From Archangium violaceum (GTDB taxonomy: Bacteria; Myxococcota; Myxococcia; Myxococcales; Myxococcaceae), in assembly GCF_016859125.1 (NCBI RefSeq), contig NZ_CP069338.1, positions 5,519,501 to 5,583,500 of the forward strand: a stretch of DNA of 64,000 bases, in the 5' to 3' direction. The position numbers were made by a program, and so were the translations under genes. Within the stretch, counting starts at the first letter, position 1; every line of letters starts with the position of its first letter. Shown one piece after another: positions 41,670-48,405 of this stretch. Below the pieces are notes generated by a model. The model saw only the letters and a list, made by a program, of their open reading frames with translations, searched no databases and was not told where the DNA came from.

Positions 41670-44600
41670 TCACGGCCGGGCTTCCACGCGAGGGGCCGCC
41701 CCACTGAGGGACTCGGCCTTGCGGACGAAGCCCGCCAGTCCCCGGGCCCGCGCCTCCTCCGCCAGCACCTGCATCCGCTGCCAGGCCAGGGAGAGCCGAC
41801 CCAGCGCCAGCTCCGCCTCCGCGAGCGCCAGCCGGGTCTCGTACTCCAGGAGGACGAGCCCCTTGTCACGCGTCTCGGTGAGGACCCGATTCAGTCGCCT
41901 CGCCGCCTCGCGGGACCTGCCCTCCGCGGTGAGCACCCGGGCCGCCACCACCGCCGAGCCGAGCCGCGTCTGGGCGTTCTGGCTCCGGGCCGCCATCGCT
42001 TCCGCCCGGGCACTCGCCGCGCGGGCCTCCGAGAGCTGGCGCCGCGCCAGGTACACCTGCGCCAGGGCGGTGTGGGCCTGGGCCTCTCCGTCCGGCAGCC
42101 CCAACCCGTGCAGCGTCTCCACCGCCGCGTGCAGCGGCTCGAGCCCGGCTTCCGGCTGGCCCTCCTCCACCGCGAGCAGCCCGAGGGCGATCTGCGTCTC
42201 GGCCACCTCGCCGCGGCCCTCCAGCTTCTGGCGCAGCTCCAGCGCCTCCTCGTACTGGCTGCGCGCGCGCGTCAGGTCTCCCTCCATCAGCGACACCGTG
42301 CCAGCGCCGTGCAGGTGGTAGGCGGCATAGCGGTGGTCCTTCATCTGCCCCGCCAGGGCGAGCCCCTCCGCGTAGTGTTGCCGCGCCCGGACGGGGTTGC
42401 CCTCCGCCAGGGAGATGTTGCCCAGCGTCCACAGCCCCATGATGAGGGCGTAGCGGTAGCCCGTCTCCTGGCTCAGGCGCACGCCCTCCTCACCCTGTGG
42501 CCGGGCCCGGGCCGGCTCTCCGCGCATCAGCCGGAGCTGGGCGAGGTTGGTCCGCGTCAGCCCCTCGTTGCGCCGGTCGTTGATTTCCTGCTCGAGCTCC
42601 AGCGCCTGCTCGAAGAGGGGCTCCGCCTCCACCAGCTCGCCCTGCATGAGGAGGGTGTCGGCGATGTTCTGCATCGCCACGGCCATGCCGCCCCGGTGGT
42701 TGAGGTCCTTCCAGATGCGCAGCGCCTCGTGGAAGACGCGCTTGGCCTCCTCGTAGTTGCCCTCCTCGTAGGCGACGTTGGCCAGCCGGTTGAGCGCCTC
42801 GGCCTCGGAGCCCGGGTCCCCGGCCTCGACGAAGATGCCGCGGGCTTCCTGGCAGGCGGCGCTCGCCTCCTGGTGGTGCCCCAGTCGCAGGAGCGCGTTG
42901 CACCGGGCCAGACGGGCCCTCCCCACCAGCAGGCGGGAGCCGCGCGTGGTGCCCTTCTGCTCGGCCCGGGTGGCCAGGGGAAGCACGCCCTGGTAGTCCG
43001 AGAGGCTGTGCCGCACCTGGGCCTCGGTCAGGTCGATGCGCTCGTCCTCCGAGGCCGGCGGCGGCCTGCGGCGGAGCGCGGCGAGCGTGGCGAGCGCGTC
43101 CCGGCCCTGTCCCGCGGCGGACTGGGCGCTGGCGAGCCGCAGGCCGTAGTCGAGGTTGTCGGGGAAGAGGCTGGAGAGGGTGCGGTAGTCGTTCACCGCC
43201 TTCGCCCAGTCCTTCTCCATTTCGTGGACGCGGCCCTCCACCAACAGCCGCTCCTCGCGGGACAGGCCCTCCGCGAGCGCGAGCGCCCTGCGGGCCTGCT
43301 CGAGGGCGCGCGTGTCGTAGCCGAGCACCGCCCACGTCTCCGCCAGCGCGGAGTGGGCCAGGGCGAAGCGGGGATCCGCGTCGATGGCCTGGGTGAAGAA
43401 CTCCCGGGCATCGAGTGGCTCGTAGGCGCGCAGTCTGGCGAGGCCCTCGGCGTAGAGCCGGAGCGCGGTGGCGTTGGCGGGCAGCACGGTGGTGGTGGGA
43501 GACCCGGTGCCCGTTCCCTCCGTGCCGTGCGTGACGAGCCTGCCCCGCAGCCGCTCGCCCATGCGCGAGACGAGCCCGAGGATGCCGGCCTGCGTCCCTG
43601 TCTCCTTGAGGATGGCCATCTCCTCACCCGTGGAGACGTCCTGCAGCCGCAGCAGGAGGCTGAGCTGGCCCCCTGTCTCCTCCGGCAGCGCCAGGTAGGA
43701 GCCGAGCACCACGTAGTCCACGCCCAGGTGCGCGCGGATGCGGGCGAGCGTGTCCGGCGCCAGGCTCTCGCTGTCGGCCAGGGACAGCTCGCGCTTCATC
43801 CGGACGACGGTCTCGCCCGCCACCATGCGCAGATCCTCCCCCGCGGCGAGCTCGGCGGTGAGCATCTCGGAGAAGGCCGTGGTGAGCCACGCCGACTCCT
43901 GCCGCCCGGACAGGTTCTTGAATCCGAGCACCGCCACCGAGCGGCGCGGCTTCACCTGCCGGGCCTCCTCGGAGGAAGGGGAGGGGCTTTCCCCTCGGAG
44001 CGAATAGCCCGCCACCGCCGCCAGCACGAGCCCGCACAGCGCCAGCAACACCACGCGCAGCCGCCAGCCCCGCCCGGGCCTGGGCGCCGTCGTGGAGACG
44101 GAGGGCAGCGACGGGCTCGAGTGGGTGACGCGCCGGGCCTTGGCCGTGTCCGAGGGCGGCACCAGCGGCGCCCTGCCCGGCACACCCACCTCGCACACCT
44201 CCACCGGCTCCTCCACCCCGGCCAGCAGGTAGAAGCCATGGGCGCGCCAGGCCAGCTCGGTTCCCTCTCCCTGGCTTCCCACGAAGGCGCGGCGGGCGAT
44301 GTCGAAGGCGGCGCGCGTCATCAGCGTCTGCCCTCCCTGGGCGAGCGGCATGATACGGGCGGCGATCAGCTTGGTGAGCCCCTCCACGTCCACGGGCTTG
44401 GCGCCCTGGGCCACCAGGTGGGGGGGGTTCTCGCGCAGCACCACCTCGCCCAGGTGGATGCCCGCGCGGGCCTCGAGCCGTACCCCCAGCTCCTGTGACA
44501 GCAGGGCGAGCCGCTCGTGGTAGGCGAGCGTGTAGCGGGCGGCGTCCACCGGCCGTTCGAAGAGGAGCAGGAAGCCATCGGTCTTGTCGATCTCCTGTCC

Positions 44601-45581
44601 GGCGTGGAGGTGCAGCAGCTCGCGGGCGAGCTGATCATGCCGGGCGAAGAGCTCGGCGGCGCGGGCATCTCCCAGGGTCTCGACGAGCCGGGTGCTCTCG
44701 ACGAGGTCGAGCAGCAGCACGGTGCGCAACGCGACGCTCGGCTCGTCGAGCGGGCGGGGGACCCGGCTGGGTTGCACGAGTGTGCGCACCACCTCGCGGG
44801 CGCTGGTGAAGCGCTTGCGCGGGTTCGGGTCCAGGCAGCGGCGGATGACGACTTCCCAGCGGTGGGGCAGGCCCAGATGGACGGCCGGGGCCAGCGCGCC
44901 GCGGCGCAGCTGCGTGAACAGGGTCTTCGCCTCGGAGTCCGGTGAGGACAGCGCACCGGCGAGCAGCTCGAGCAGGACGAGCCCCAGCGAGTAGAGGTCC
45001 GACGCGGTCGTGGGGGCGGCGCCCTTGCGTTGCTCGGGTGCCAGGTGCGGAGCGGCGGCCGGTGGGCTCCCGTCATCCCCCGCGCACAGGGGGGCGGCGA
45101 GCACGGCGCGCGTTCCCTCGGGGGCCGGGACGAGCATCACCCGGGCGCTCCGGAGATCTCCCTGGACGAGCCCCGCGTCATGCAGCGCGGCCAGCCCCTC
45201 GCACATCTGCCGCGCCAGCGGGAGGGCCTCCTGGGGTGTCAGCGGGCCCTGTTGGAGGAGCCGCTGCTCCAGGGACTCCCCCTCGAGCAGCTCCGTGGTC
45301 AGGAAGGGCAGCTCCACTCCGGACGTGTCCTCGGCGTGGCGGCCCACGTCGAGGATCCGCTGGACGTGGGGGTTCACCACCTCCCGGGCCCGGTGCAGCT
45401 CGCGCTCGACGCGCTCCAGCGCCCGCGCGTCCCGGGTGCTCGACCGGACGATCTTCAACGTGACGCGCTGCTCACGCTGCACATCCAGCGCCTCGAACGT
45501 CTCGTCTTGCCCCACCAGGGCAATGGACCTCAGGAGCTTGTAGCGGCCCACGAAGAGCCGCTCGCTGCCAGGTTGGGTCAT
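41670..45581 (-). CDS. Pseudokinase-adenylate cyclase-TPR membrane signalling protein
   Basis: A 1303-residue modular protein. Residues ~12-270 are a degenerate Ser/Thr kinase fold: K43 is kept (VTLKIV), but the catalytic HRD reads Q140-G-D142, the following KPEN is lost and no DFG is visible. Residues ~283-465 are a class III cyclase-type domain (LLLDLVESTRLVETLGD with D292; DKTDGFLLLF, where the canonical GDG is altered). One membrane helix lies at ~508-527. Residues ~547-690 resemble a FlgO/TolB-type fold (SVAVLGFKNLSGR). About 600 residues of TPR repeats follow, outside the membrane if the kinase side is cytoplasmic. I infer a non-catalytic sensor or scaffold. Confidence 0.85.
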   Translation of the reverse strand: MTQPGSERLFVGRYKLLRSIALVGQDETFEALDVQREQRVTLKIVRSSTRDARALERVERELHRAREVVNPHVQRILDVGRHAEDTSGVELPFLTTELLEGESLEQRLLQQGPLTPQEALPLARQMCEGLAALHDAGLVQGDLRSARVMLVPAPEGTRAVLAAPLCAGDDGSPPAAAPHLAPEQRKGAAPTTASDLYSLGLVLLELLAGALSSPDSEAKTLFTQLRRGALAPAVHLGLPHRWEVVIRRCLDPNPRKRFTSAREVVRTLVQPSRVPRPLDEPSVALRTVLLLDLVESTRLVETLGDARAAELFARHDQLARELLHLHAGQEIDKTDGFLLLFERPVDAARYTLAYHERLALLSQELGVRLEARAGIHLGEVVLRENPPHLVAQGAKPVDVEGLTKLIAARIMPLAQGGQTLMTRAAFDIARRAFVGSQGEGTELAWRAHGFYLLAGVEEPVEVCEVGVPGRAPLVPPSDTAKARRVTHSSPSLPSVSTTAPRPGRGWRLRVVLLALCGLVLAAVAGYSLRGESPSPSSEEARQVKPRRSVAVLGFKNLSGRQESAWLTTAFSEMLTAELAAGEDLRMVAGETVVRMKRELSLADSESLAPDTLARIRAHLGVDYVVLGSYLALPEETGGQLSLLLRLQDVSTGEEMAILKETGTQAGILGLVSRMGERLRGRLVTHGTEGTGTGSPTTTVLPANATALRLYAEGLARLRAYEPLDAREFFTQAIDADPRFALAHSALAETWAVLGYDTRALEQARRALALAEGLSREERLLVEGRVHEMEKDWAKAVNDYRTLSSLFPDNLDYGLRLASAQSAAGQGRDALATLAALRRRPPPASEDERIDLTEAQVRHSLSDYQGVLPLATRAEQKGTTRGSRLLVGRARLARCNALLRLGHHQEASAACQEARGIFVEAGDPGSEAEALNRLANVAYEEGNYEEAKRVFHEALRIWKDLNHRGGMAVAMQNIADTLLMQGELVEAEPLFEQALELEQEINDRRNEGLTRTNLAQLRLMRGEPARARPQGEEGVRLSQETGYRYALIMGLWTLGNISLAEGNPVRARQHYAEGLALAGQMKDHRYAAYHLHGAGTVSLMEGDLTRARSQYEEALELRQKLEGRGEVAETQIALGLLAVEEGQPEAGLEPLHAAVETLHGLGLPDGEAQAHTALAQVYLARRQLSEARAASARAEAMAARSQNAQTRLGSAVVAARVLTAEGRSREAARRLNRVLTETRDKGLVLLEYETRLALAEAELALGRLSLAWQRMQVLAEEARARGLAGFVRKAESLSGAAPRVEARP

Positions 45582-45827: not shown

Positions 45828-47696
45828 ATGAGGGTCGCCCTGGTCGTGATGCCGCTGGCGGCGGTTCATCGCCCGAGCCTCGCGGCGGGTCTGTTGCAGG
45901 CCGCGGTGAAGGCGCGGGGCCACGAGTGCCACACCAAATACTTCAACGTCACGCTCTGGAAGATGCTGGGCGCGGAGTCCTACCGCTTCTTCTGTCAGGA
46001 GGCGCCCATGACGGCGCTGGCGGGGGAGTGGGCCTTCGCGCAGGCCTTCCACGGGCGCCGCGAGGGGGCGCGGGAGGCCTACGCACGCGAGGTGCTGGAC
46101 CATCCGGTGTGGGGCATGTCGCCCGCTTCGCGCGAGCACGTGTGGGCGCTGGAGGAGGTGGCGCCCGCGTTCCTGCGCGTGGCCTTCGAGTCCTGTGACT
46201 GGGGCCAGTACGACCTGGTGGGCTTCACCAGCACCTTCGAGCAGACGATGCCCTCGTTGTGCCTGGCGCGGATGATTCGCGAGCGCTACCCCCGGGTGAA
46301 GCTGGTGGCCGGTGGCGCCAACTTCGAGGCGGGGATGGGCCGGCAGTACATGGAGCGCTTCGGGTTCCTCGACTACGTGGCCACGGGCGAGGCGGACGTC
46401 TCCTTCCCCCAGCTGTGCGAGAACCTGCGCGAGGGCCGCGACGAGGTGCCCCCGGGCTTCCTCTACCGGGAGGGCGGTGTGGTGCGCGAGTCCCCCCGGC
46501 GCAAGGAGCCGGGCTACGCGAACCTGGATGCGCTGCCCACGCCGGACTACGAGGACTTCTTCCGCCTGGTGCGCACGAGCGCGCCCGAGCTGGCGGCCGG
46601 GATGTGGCTGCCCCTGGAGGCCTCACGGGGCTGCTGGTGGGGCGAGCACTCGCACTGCACGTTCTGCGGCCTCAACGGCGAGGCGATGACCTTCCGCCGC
46701 AAGAGCTGGCGGCGGGTGGTGGACGAGCTGGAGGAGGTGGGCCGGCGTCACGGCGCCGCGCCCGTGCAGTACGCCGACAACATCCTGGCGATGGACTACT
46801 TCAAGGACCTGCTCCCCCACTGGGCGGCCCGGCCCGAGCGGACGGAGAAGTTCTTCGAGATCAAATCCAACCTCAAGCGCCGCCAGGTGCGCCTGCTTCG
46901 CGAGGCGGGCATCACCCGCGTGCAGGCCGGCGTGGAGACGCTCGCGGACGGGACGCTCAGGGTGATGCGCAAGGGCGTGTCGGGTGCGCAGAACGTGGCG
47001 CTGCTGCGCTGGTGCCAGGAGCTGGGCGTGGACTCGCTCTGGAACGTCATCTACGGGTTTCCGCGCGAGGATCCGGAGGACTACGCGCGGACGCTCGCGC
47101 TGCTCCAGAAGCTGGCGCACCTGAGGCCCCCGGACATCTGCTCGCCCATCCGGATGGACCGCTTCAGCCCCAACCACGCGAGCTGGCGCGAGCAGGGGTT
47201 CTCCGGCATCCGGCCCATGCCGGCCTACCGGCACGTCTTCCCCTTCCCGGAGGAGACGCTCCACGAGCTGGCCTACTACTTCGACTACGAGCACCCGCGC
47301 TGGAACGAGGTGCTCGAACGGGGCGCGGCGCTCCGGTCCTTCATCTCCCAGTGGCAGGAGCGCCACCACCGGCGCGACAACGGCGAGCTGGCCGTGAAGC
47401 CGCACTGGCAGGGAGGCTTCGTCCTCGTCGACAGCCGCTTCAACGTCACGCCCGCCAGCGAGCGCCTCGCCGAGGCCACGGTGGCGCTGCTGCTGGCGTG
47501 TGACGCGCCCACCTCGCGCGAGCAGGCGCTGAGGACCGCGGCGGGGGCCACCGGAGCCTCGGCCCCCGAGGCGCTGGAGCGGGAACTGGCCCGGCTGCTC
47601 GAGCGAGGCATCATCGCCAGCGTGGGCTCGCTCCTGGTGACGTTGGCGATGCTTCCGGACGGCTTGAGGATGGAGCGGCTCGCGAGAGCCCACTGA
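45828..47696 (+). CDS. B12-binding radical SAM protein, RiPP maturation type (rSAM ocin-1 like)
   Basis: A 622-residue enzyme. The N-terminal ~200 residues form a cobalamin-binding-like domain (YDLVGFTSTFEQTMPSLCLA, KLVAGGANFE). The radical SAM cluster is the variant C269-x7-C277-x2-C280 in SRGCWWGEHSHCTFCGLNG, which matches the RiPP maturation radical SAM protein 1/C-methyltransferase family (TIGR03975-like). Further SAM-domain parts are GITRVQAGVETLADGTLRVM and NVIYGFPREDPEDY. A C-terminal ~130-residue domain (VKPHWQGGFVLVDSRFNVTP, winged-helix-like end) follows. It would modify a ribosomal peptide, probably by C-methylation, and a Gly/Pro-repeat peptide gene follows after 20 bp. The precise reaction is inference. 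Confidence 0.88.
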   Translation: MRVALVVMPLAAVHRPSLAAGLLQAAVKARGHECHTKYFNVTLWKMLGAESYRFFCQEAPMTALAGEWAFAQAFHGRREGAREAYAREVLDHPVWGMSPASREHVWALEEVAPAFLRVAFESCDWGQYDLVGFTSTFEQTMPSLCLARMIRERYPRVKLVAGGANFEAGMGRQYMERFGFLDYVATGEADVSFPQLCENLREGRDEVPPGFLYREGGVVRESPRRKEPGYANLDALPTPDYEDFFRLVRTSAPELAAGMWLPLEASRGCWWGEHSHCTFCGLNGEAMTFRRKSWRRVVDELEEVGRRHGAAPVQYADNILAMDYFKDLLPHWAARPERTEKFFEIKSNLKRRQVRLLREAGITRVQAGVETLADGTLRVMRKGVSGAQNVALLRWCQELGVDSLWNVIYGFPREDPEDYARTLALLQKLAHLRPPDICSPIRMDRFSPNHASWREQGFSGIRPMPAYRHVFPFPEETLHELAYYFDYEHPRWNEVLERGAALRSFISQWQERHHRRDNGELAVKPHWQGGFVLVDSRFNVTPASERLAEATVALLLACDAPTSREQALRTAAGATGASAPEALERELARLLERGIIASVGSLLVTLAMLPDGLRMERLARAH

Positions 47697-47716
47697 CACA
47701 ACCAAAGGGAGGGGAG

Positions 47717-48142
47717 ATGTCGAAGCAGACGAGATACCTGCTGACGGTCGACTCGGCGACGGGTGCGGCCGTGAGGTTGGAGCGACTGGGTGAAGCGGGA
47801 GACCTGACCGAGGTTCCGTTGAGCACGCTCACGGCGGCCCCCCTGGGCGTGACGAGCCCGGCGCCCGCGGCGGGAGGAGGGGCACCGCTCTCGCCCCAGT
47901 CCCTGGTCATCAACATCTACATGGGAGGCCCGCAGCAGGCGGCTCCGCTCTCCCTGTCGCTGCCGGGGCTCATCGGGCCCGGGGCGCCTGGAGGGCCCGC
48001 GCCGAGCACCACCACCATCGGGCCCGGGGGGCCTGGAGGGCCCGCGCCGAGCGCGAGTCTGGCGGGACCAGGCGGCCCTGGTGGTTTCGCGGGGCCCGCT
48101 CCGAGCGGGACCGCTGGCGGTGAGGAGGGCGGCTCGCGGTAG
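47717..48142 (+). CDS. Gly/Pro-repeat protein, candidate RiPP precursor
   Basis: A 141-residue protein starting 20 bp after the radical SAM gene with a strong AGGGAGGGGAG ribosome site. Residues 1-~40 are a folded, charged leader-like part (YLLTVDSATGAAVRLERLGE). Residues ~58-84 hold a hydrophobic strand (SLVINIYMGG). Residues 85-130 are tandem repeats of the type IGPGGPGGPAPS, with two 45-bp DNA repeats beginning at 47972 and 48017. The tail is acidic and Gly-rich. No Cys is present, so it is not a lanthipeptide or sactipeptide. I infer that it is the substrate of the adjacent enzyme because of position and leader/core-like layout; it is not a family I recognise. Confidence 0.6.
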   Translation: MSKQTRYLLTVDSATGAAVRLERLGEAGDLTEVPLSTLTAAPLGVTSPAPAAGGGAPLSPQSLVINIYMGGPQQAAPLSLSLPGLIGPGAPGGPAPSTTTIGPGGPGGPAPSASLAGPGGPGGFAGPAPSGTAGGEEGGSR

Positions 48143-48151
48143 GCTGTCCGT

Positions 48152-48405
48152 ATGGACGCGAACGCCGTTGCCCGGGAGCTCCAGATGCTCCGCTCGTTGA
48201 TGACCGGCCACACCGACCGGCACGACGAGCGGCGCACCTCCGACCTTCTCGTGTCATCGCCCGGGATGGCGTGGCCCGTGTCGCTCGCGCCGCCCAGGAG
48301 GACATGGGCCGGGTGCCCTTCGATTCAGAGGCCCCACGTCAGGCGCGGCTGGCCGAGCTGACGCGCGACCTGCTGCGCGCGGAGGCCCTGGCTCCTCGGG
48401 CTTGA
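48152..48405 (+). pseudogene. Frameshifted small gene behind the Gly/Pro peptide
   Basis: ATG at 48152 opens MDANAVARELQMLRSLMTGH and continues to HDERRTSDLL. Near 48245-48250 the natural continuation moves to another frame, reading RVIARDGVARVARAAQEDMG and ending LTRDLLRAEALAPRA at TGA 48403-48405. Together they give ~85 helical, charged residues. Either one or two bases were lost in the CTTCTC region, or the sequence has an error there. No family is recognised. It starts 9 bp after the peptide gene and may be part of the same unit. Confidence 0.5.

Follow-up and report, generated by a model that had tools for sequence, protein, structure and literature searches.

Does a radical SAM enzyme gene that is followed, 20 bp on, by a small Gly/Pro-rich reading frame form a RiPP maturase together with its own substrate, and if so, what would the enzyme do to the peptide? 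The question was raised by an earlier note on a window of 64,000 nucleotides of the Archangium violaceum genome, which proposed a possible new RiPP class. Methylation of unactivated carbons by B12 radical SAM enzymes is hard chemistry, for which few tractable peptide systems are available.

The upstream gene (45828..47696, + strand) encodes a 622-aa member of the B12-type radical SAM RiPP C-methyltransferase family. Against NCBIfam TIGR03975 (rSAM_ocin_1, RiPP maturation radical SAM C-methyltransferase) it scored 596.7 bits, approximately twice the cut-off of 281.85, and covered profile positions 1-606 of 606, i.e., a full-length match. Pfam recognised a Radical_SAM domain, together with a weak B12-binding match (20.5 bits, below the 32.1 cut-off). 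A profile built from 31 homologues of the enzyme matched the solved cobalamin radical SAM enzymes TokK, OxsB, CysS, and TsrM, with the alignments to OxsB and TokK beginning at positions 101-132. The enzyme contains SRGCWWGEHSHCTFCGLNG, and its C269-x7-C277-x2-C280 arrangement (codons at 46632..46667, + strand) was unchanged in 31 of 31 homologues; this is the [4Fe-4S] cysteine motif by which class B of the cobalamin-dependent radical SAM enzymes is recognised. Cx7Cx2C is also the unconventional motif that has been reported for PoyB/PoyC and for the bottromycin methyltransferases (PMC5682303, PMC11285071). The initial reading of a B12-type maturase with a C-x7-C-x2-C cluster is thus borne out by the family match, the motif, and the invariant cysteines. 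The C-terminal ~100 aa (47388..47693, + strand) are the most divergent part of the enzyme, with 18-25% identity to distant family members compared to 40-48% in the radical SAM core. No Pfam domain scored above cut-off in this part, where a relaxed scan returned sub-threshold matches only, and its divergence across the family fits a putative substrate-recognition domain.

The downstream gene (47717..48142, + strand) encodes a 141-aa peptide and is separated from the enzyme gene by 20 bp (47697..47716, + strand), in which the purine-rich ribosome-binding site AAAGGGAGGGG precedes the ATG; a GGAG-type purine-rich site is retained in 8 of 8 relatives. The peptide is free of Cys, as are its 7 relatives, and matched no family in Pfam or NCBIfam. 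The gene spacing, peptide length, strong ribosome site, and lack of Cys had all been described correctly before. Residues 1-38, MSKQTRYLLTVDSATGAAVRLERLGEAGDLTEVPLSTL (47717..47830, + strand), are nearly fixed, with 23 invariant positions across 8 species, and dN lies far below dS in every pairwise comparison, indicating purifying selection. Of the folded, leader-like start read earlier from this genome, the leader-like character is upheld by that conservation. Beyond the leader, the peptides are hypervariable and hard to align, with total lengths of 141-212 aa (G002 counted through a frameshift) and a low-complexity core of ~100-170 aa, which is unusually long for a RiPP. In G002 the frame breaks after 55 codons at a G-run (L021:3387-3620), and the repeat tail can still be made out in the frame that follows; the break reflects either a sequencing error or decay. 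A leader under purifying selection ahead of a hypervariable tail is the anatomy of a RiPP precursor, and the peptide adjoins a maturase, as conserved-leader/variable-core precursors of RiPPs generally do. The leader itself resembles no established type: neither NCBIfam nor Pfam returned an NHLP (nitrile-hydratase-like, proteusin) leader match, the Nif11 and lanthipeptide class I leader models did not match either, and four relatives of the peptide gave no NCBIfam match in a search in which an NHLP peptide did.

Co-occurrence of the two genes, on which the earlier note had made the pairing depend, was exact. Close orthologues of the enzyme (at least 76% identity, full length) are present in 8 of the 96 genomes of the family, and the leader is present in exactly those 8, each time directly downstream of the enzyme. 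The naive probability of such a coincidence, 1/C(96,8) or ~8e-12, is too small because of the kinship among the genomes and therefore overstates the case. Both enzyme and leader are absent from the congener G003, and no further convincing leader was found in a 195-genome sample of the phylum that includes the 8. Weak leader matches in G022, G042, G053, G070, G086, G097, and G183 were partial (E 0.0003-0.01) and were treated as chance.

The genomic surroundings show that it is the two genes that stay together. In G000, G001, G002, G004, and G008 the pair adjoins the same divergent gene for a protein kinase and TPR protein (1303 aa, window positions 41670-45581), whereas the flanks at the G005, G018, and G111 loci resemble neither this locus nor one another, and the only DNA common to these three loci is a 2.0-2.3 kb cassette of enzyme and peptide. 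The cassette enzymes form one clade in the enzyme tree, in which G005 groups with G018/G111 apart from its own genus, suggesting transfer of the cassette. In G005, moreover, the stop between the genes is lost, and enzyme and peptide are read as a single in-frame ORF of 771 aa (L054:6028-8340). The two genes are passed on jointly, by descent as well as by transfer, and we conclude that they are a real, conserved, mobile two-gene cassette. Since the pair moves as a unit, its product is very probably a modified peptide not described before; we found no published description of the enzyme-peptide pair in the open-access literature.

Two neighbouring genes were considered as further components and rejected. 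The kinase/TPR gene keeps its place beside the cassette in 5 of 8 species but is missing at the remaining cassette loci. An APP1-like phosphatase gene (PF09949) lies intact behind the pair in G001, G002, and G004, a set comprising A. lansinium and A. violaceum besides G002, and is absent from four species; in the present genome it is a remnant (48152..48402, + strand) that has lost ~313 codons and keeps residues 1-36 and 350-401 (tblastn with the A. lansinium protein), so it is dispensable for the pair. As observed before, no transporter or peptidase gene adjoins the pair, and across the cassette loci the pair is not accompanied by any peptidase, transporter, or immunity gene. Bottromycin has a short core and is made with YcaO enzymes, whereas no YcaO gene lies next to this pair, with all 4 YcaO matches in this genome >1.4 Mb away; the locus thus falls outside the bottromycin/azole (TOMM) type.

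We consider it likely that the two genes are a minimal RiPP cassette for leader-guided, PoyC-like C-methylation of the variable part of the peptide. The peptide is, in all likelihood, the substrate of the enzyme, and the idea with which this work began, that a B12-type radical SAM RiPP maturase stands next to its substrate, gains support from co-occurrence, adjacency, and the leader, as well as from the RiPP genes that neighbour its homologues. The first ~38 residues of the peptide would act as the leader and be recognised by the enzyme, perhaps via its variable C-terminal domain. With methylcobalamin, SAM, and the Cx7Cx2C [4Fe-4S] cluster, the enzyme would then methylate unactivated carbons in the variable segment, in a reaction modelled on that of PoyC, which methylates Val/Ile C-beta; C-methylation is probably the chemistry involved. 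Enzymes encoded elsewhere would cleave and export the product. Points that weigh against this reading are the B12-binding match that falls short of the Pfam threshold, the long and low-complexity core, the broken G002 frame, the lack of cleavage, export, and immunity genes in the cassette, and a sister enzyme that has no peptide of this kind close by.

Which residues would be modified is a separate matter, and the first candidates were the Gly/Pro repeats. The repeat tail (47972..48106, + strand) comprises two 15-residue units (47972-48016 and 48017-48061) and a degenerate third; the two units lie 45 bp apart with a core identical at 36 of 37 nt, and the DNA pattern occurs at 4 sites in the 12.7-Mb genome, 2 of them in the peptide gene. 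The 15-residue repeats reported earlier are therefore real but short, with only two units plus the degenerate one. It has been suggested that each GPG repeat receives one methyl group from the enzyme, on Pro, Gly, or Ile, yielding a multiply methylated collagen-like peptide. We regard this as doubtful, even though GPG[AG]PGGPG-type blocks with constant Gly/Pro are found in 7 of 8 precursors, and precedents exist both for the residue and for the iteration: the bottromycin methyltransferases, which share Cx7Cx2C (PMC5682303, PMC11285071), reportedly methylate a RiPP at Val, Phe, and Pro (PMC5682303), and TvgA is acted upon by a radical SAM enzyme once per peptide repeat (PMC9062424). The doubt stems from two observations. 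The residue directly before GPG is Ile in this genome only, with A, S, V, T, and Q in the other precursors, and G008 carries leader and enzyme with the GPG blocks absent. Moreover, Gly-rich tails can also be spacers, and the Gly/Pro tail of this peptide may be one. Methylation of Ile, Pro, or Gly in the repeats is hence unsupported as it was stated; repeat chemistry is possible and not favoured, with Pro/Gly being unlikely targets. Should the Gly/Pro repeats nevertheless be the target, the product would represent a type of modified repeat polypeptide that has not been described. A broader version, in which the pair is a self-sufficient two-gene RiPP type whose single leader-guided enzyme, in one species fused to its substrate, methylates many carbons of a long, Cys-free, collagen-like Gly/Pro repeat polypeptide to give a modified structural or surface polypeptide and not a small antibiotic, appears decidedly improbable.

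Hydrophobic residues offer another set of sites for the proposed C-methylation. Five of the eight relatives carry V[VIL]N[IL][YF]xGG, represented here by VINIYMGG (47906..47929, + strand), a candidate modification site, and in the remaining three precursors PVLVPAY[VL]YMY stands in its place. Judged from these sequences, the hydrophobic motif VVNIYxGG would be as good a modification target as the GPG repeats. In addition, position -2 before GPG carries a hydrophobic residue 23 times out of 45, compared to a background of 21%, although these counts ignore shared ancestry. Our tentative view is that the targets could quite possibly be hydrophobic residues, i.e., those of VVNIYxGG, the Leu/Phe/Val at position -2 to each GPG block, or both.

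The enzyme might instead modify the peptide by chemistry other than methylation, for instance by closing a ring or by some other B12 radical SAM reaction. OxsB and BchE are Cbl-dependent radical SAM enzymes that are not methyltransferases (PMC13331322), and OxsB scored nearly as high as TokK against the enzyme family profile. We nonetheless find this improbable, given that C-methyltransferase is the annotation of the whole TIGR03975 family and that one of its members is located in a Poy-like cluster next to a PoyD epimerase. Finally, it is highly improbable that the peptide is an ordinary small protein, be it a regulator, a chaperone, or a surface spacer, that shares no more than a transcript with the enzyme, the substrate of which lies elsewhere: the long Gly/Pro tail, the absence of export and cleavage genes, and a sister enzyme that works without such a peptide neighbour would agree with this reading, but the exact co-occurrence, two-gene transfer, natural fusion, and leader/core anatomy argue against it.

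Comparison with known systems shows where the cassette resembles them and where it departs. The likeness to PoyB/PoyC (polytheonamide, proteusins), which are B12-dependent radical SAM C-methyltransferases, lies in the reported Cx7Cx2C motif, and a TIGR03975 homologue of the present enzyme sits with an NHLP precursor and a PoyD epimerase; unlike the polytheonamide system, the pair here has no NHLP leader, epimerase, or protease/transporter. The reported motif is likewise the feature shared with the bottromycin radical SAM methyltransferases (PMC5682303). The Tvg pathway (TvgA/TvgB, poly-cyclopropylglycine; PMC9062424) is similar in that a radical SAM enzyme acts repeatedly on a repeat peptide, but it differs in its motif, TVGG, and in its five-gene cluster with transporters; TvgB belongs to a subfamily for which binding of as many as three [4Fe-4S] clusters is known, and it forms C-C bonds (-2 Da) (PMC9062424). 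We show that the precursor family is new to Pfam and NCBIfam and that the minimal two-gene layout is new, while the maturase family is already known. Of the new RiPP class proposed earlier, the novelty of the precursor family stands; the enzyme family is not novel, and the claim of a class needs a modification. The system is compact, with a single enzyme, a single substrate, a natural fusion of the two, and eight precursor variants, and because these variants share a common leader, leader recognition and site choice are directly testable.

Relatives of the enzyme occur in other RiPP contexts. The closest one outside the cassette (G111:C95, 63% identity) branches as the fully supported sister of the cassette clade; its gene overlaps a ThcOx-type oxidase gene by 4 bp and lies behind a SagD-type YcaO gene. 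The operon (L015:5119-11057; L052:22-5960) reads YcaO (SagD type), ThcOx/nitroreductase, B12 radical SAM enzyme, and alpha/beta hydrolase, and combines azole formation with a cobalamin radical SAM enzyme. It thus differs from the pair in having cyclodehydratase and oxidase genes and in lacking a matching leader peptide: no cassette-type leader was found near the sister enzyme, and a search for the precursor of this YcaO operon identified none. Distant TIGR03975 homologues adjoin an NHLP precursor, a Nif11-type precursor, and a lanthipeptide-like peptide, the last of which resembles class I lanthipeptide leaders with a score just below the cut-off. No leader common to the precursors of these distant homologues was found, and their variety indicates that the enzyme family works on many types of RiPP, the leader differing from type to type; that of the present pair is a new one within this range.

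Two of the distant loci deserve mention in their own right. At G032:C1 (~3777088-3782584; L058:5089-10585), a TIGR03975 enzyme is accompanied by an NHLP precursor, a PoyD-type epimerase, and a methyltransferase-like gene, and the precursor core runs from Val/Ala into Asn repeats (...VNAAANVNAAANANSVANANSVV), i.e., a polytheonamide-like cluster in the same bacterial family. In G053, two near-identical small peptides with a LNESEVNLLDSVVGG leader and a short Val/Ile/Thr core (L061:5412-5772, - strand) are encoded upstream of, and divergently from, a distant TIGR03975 homologue.
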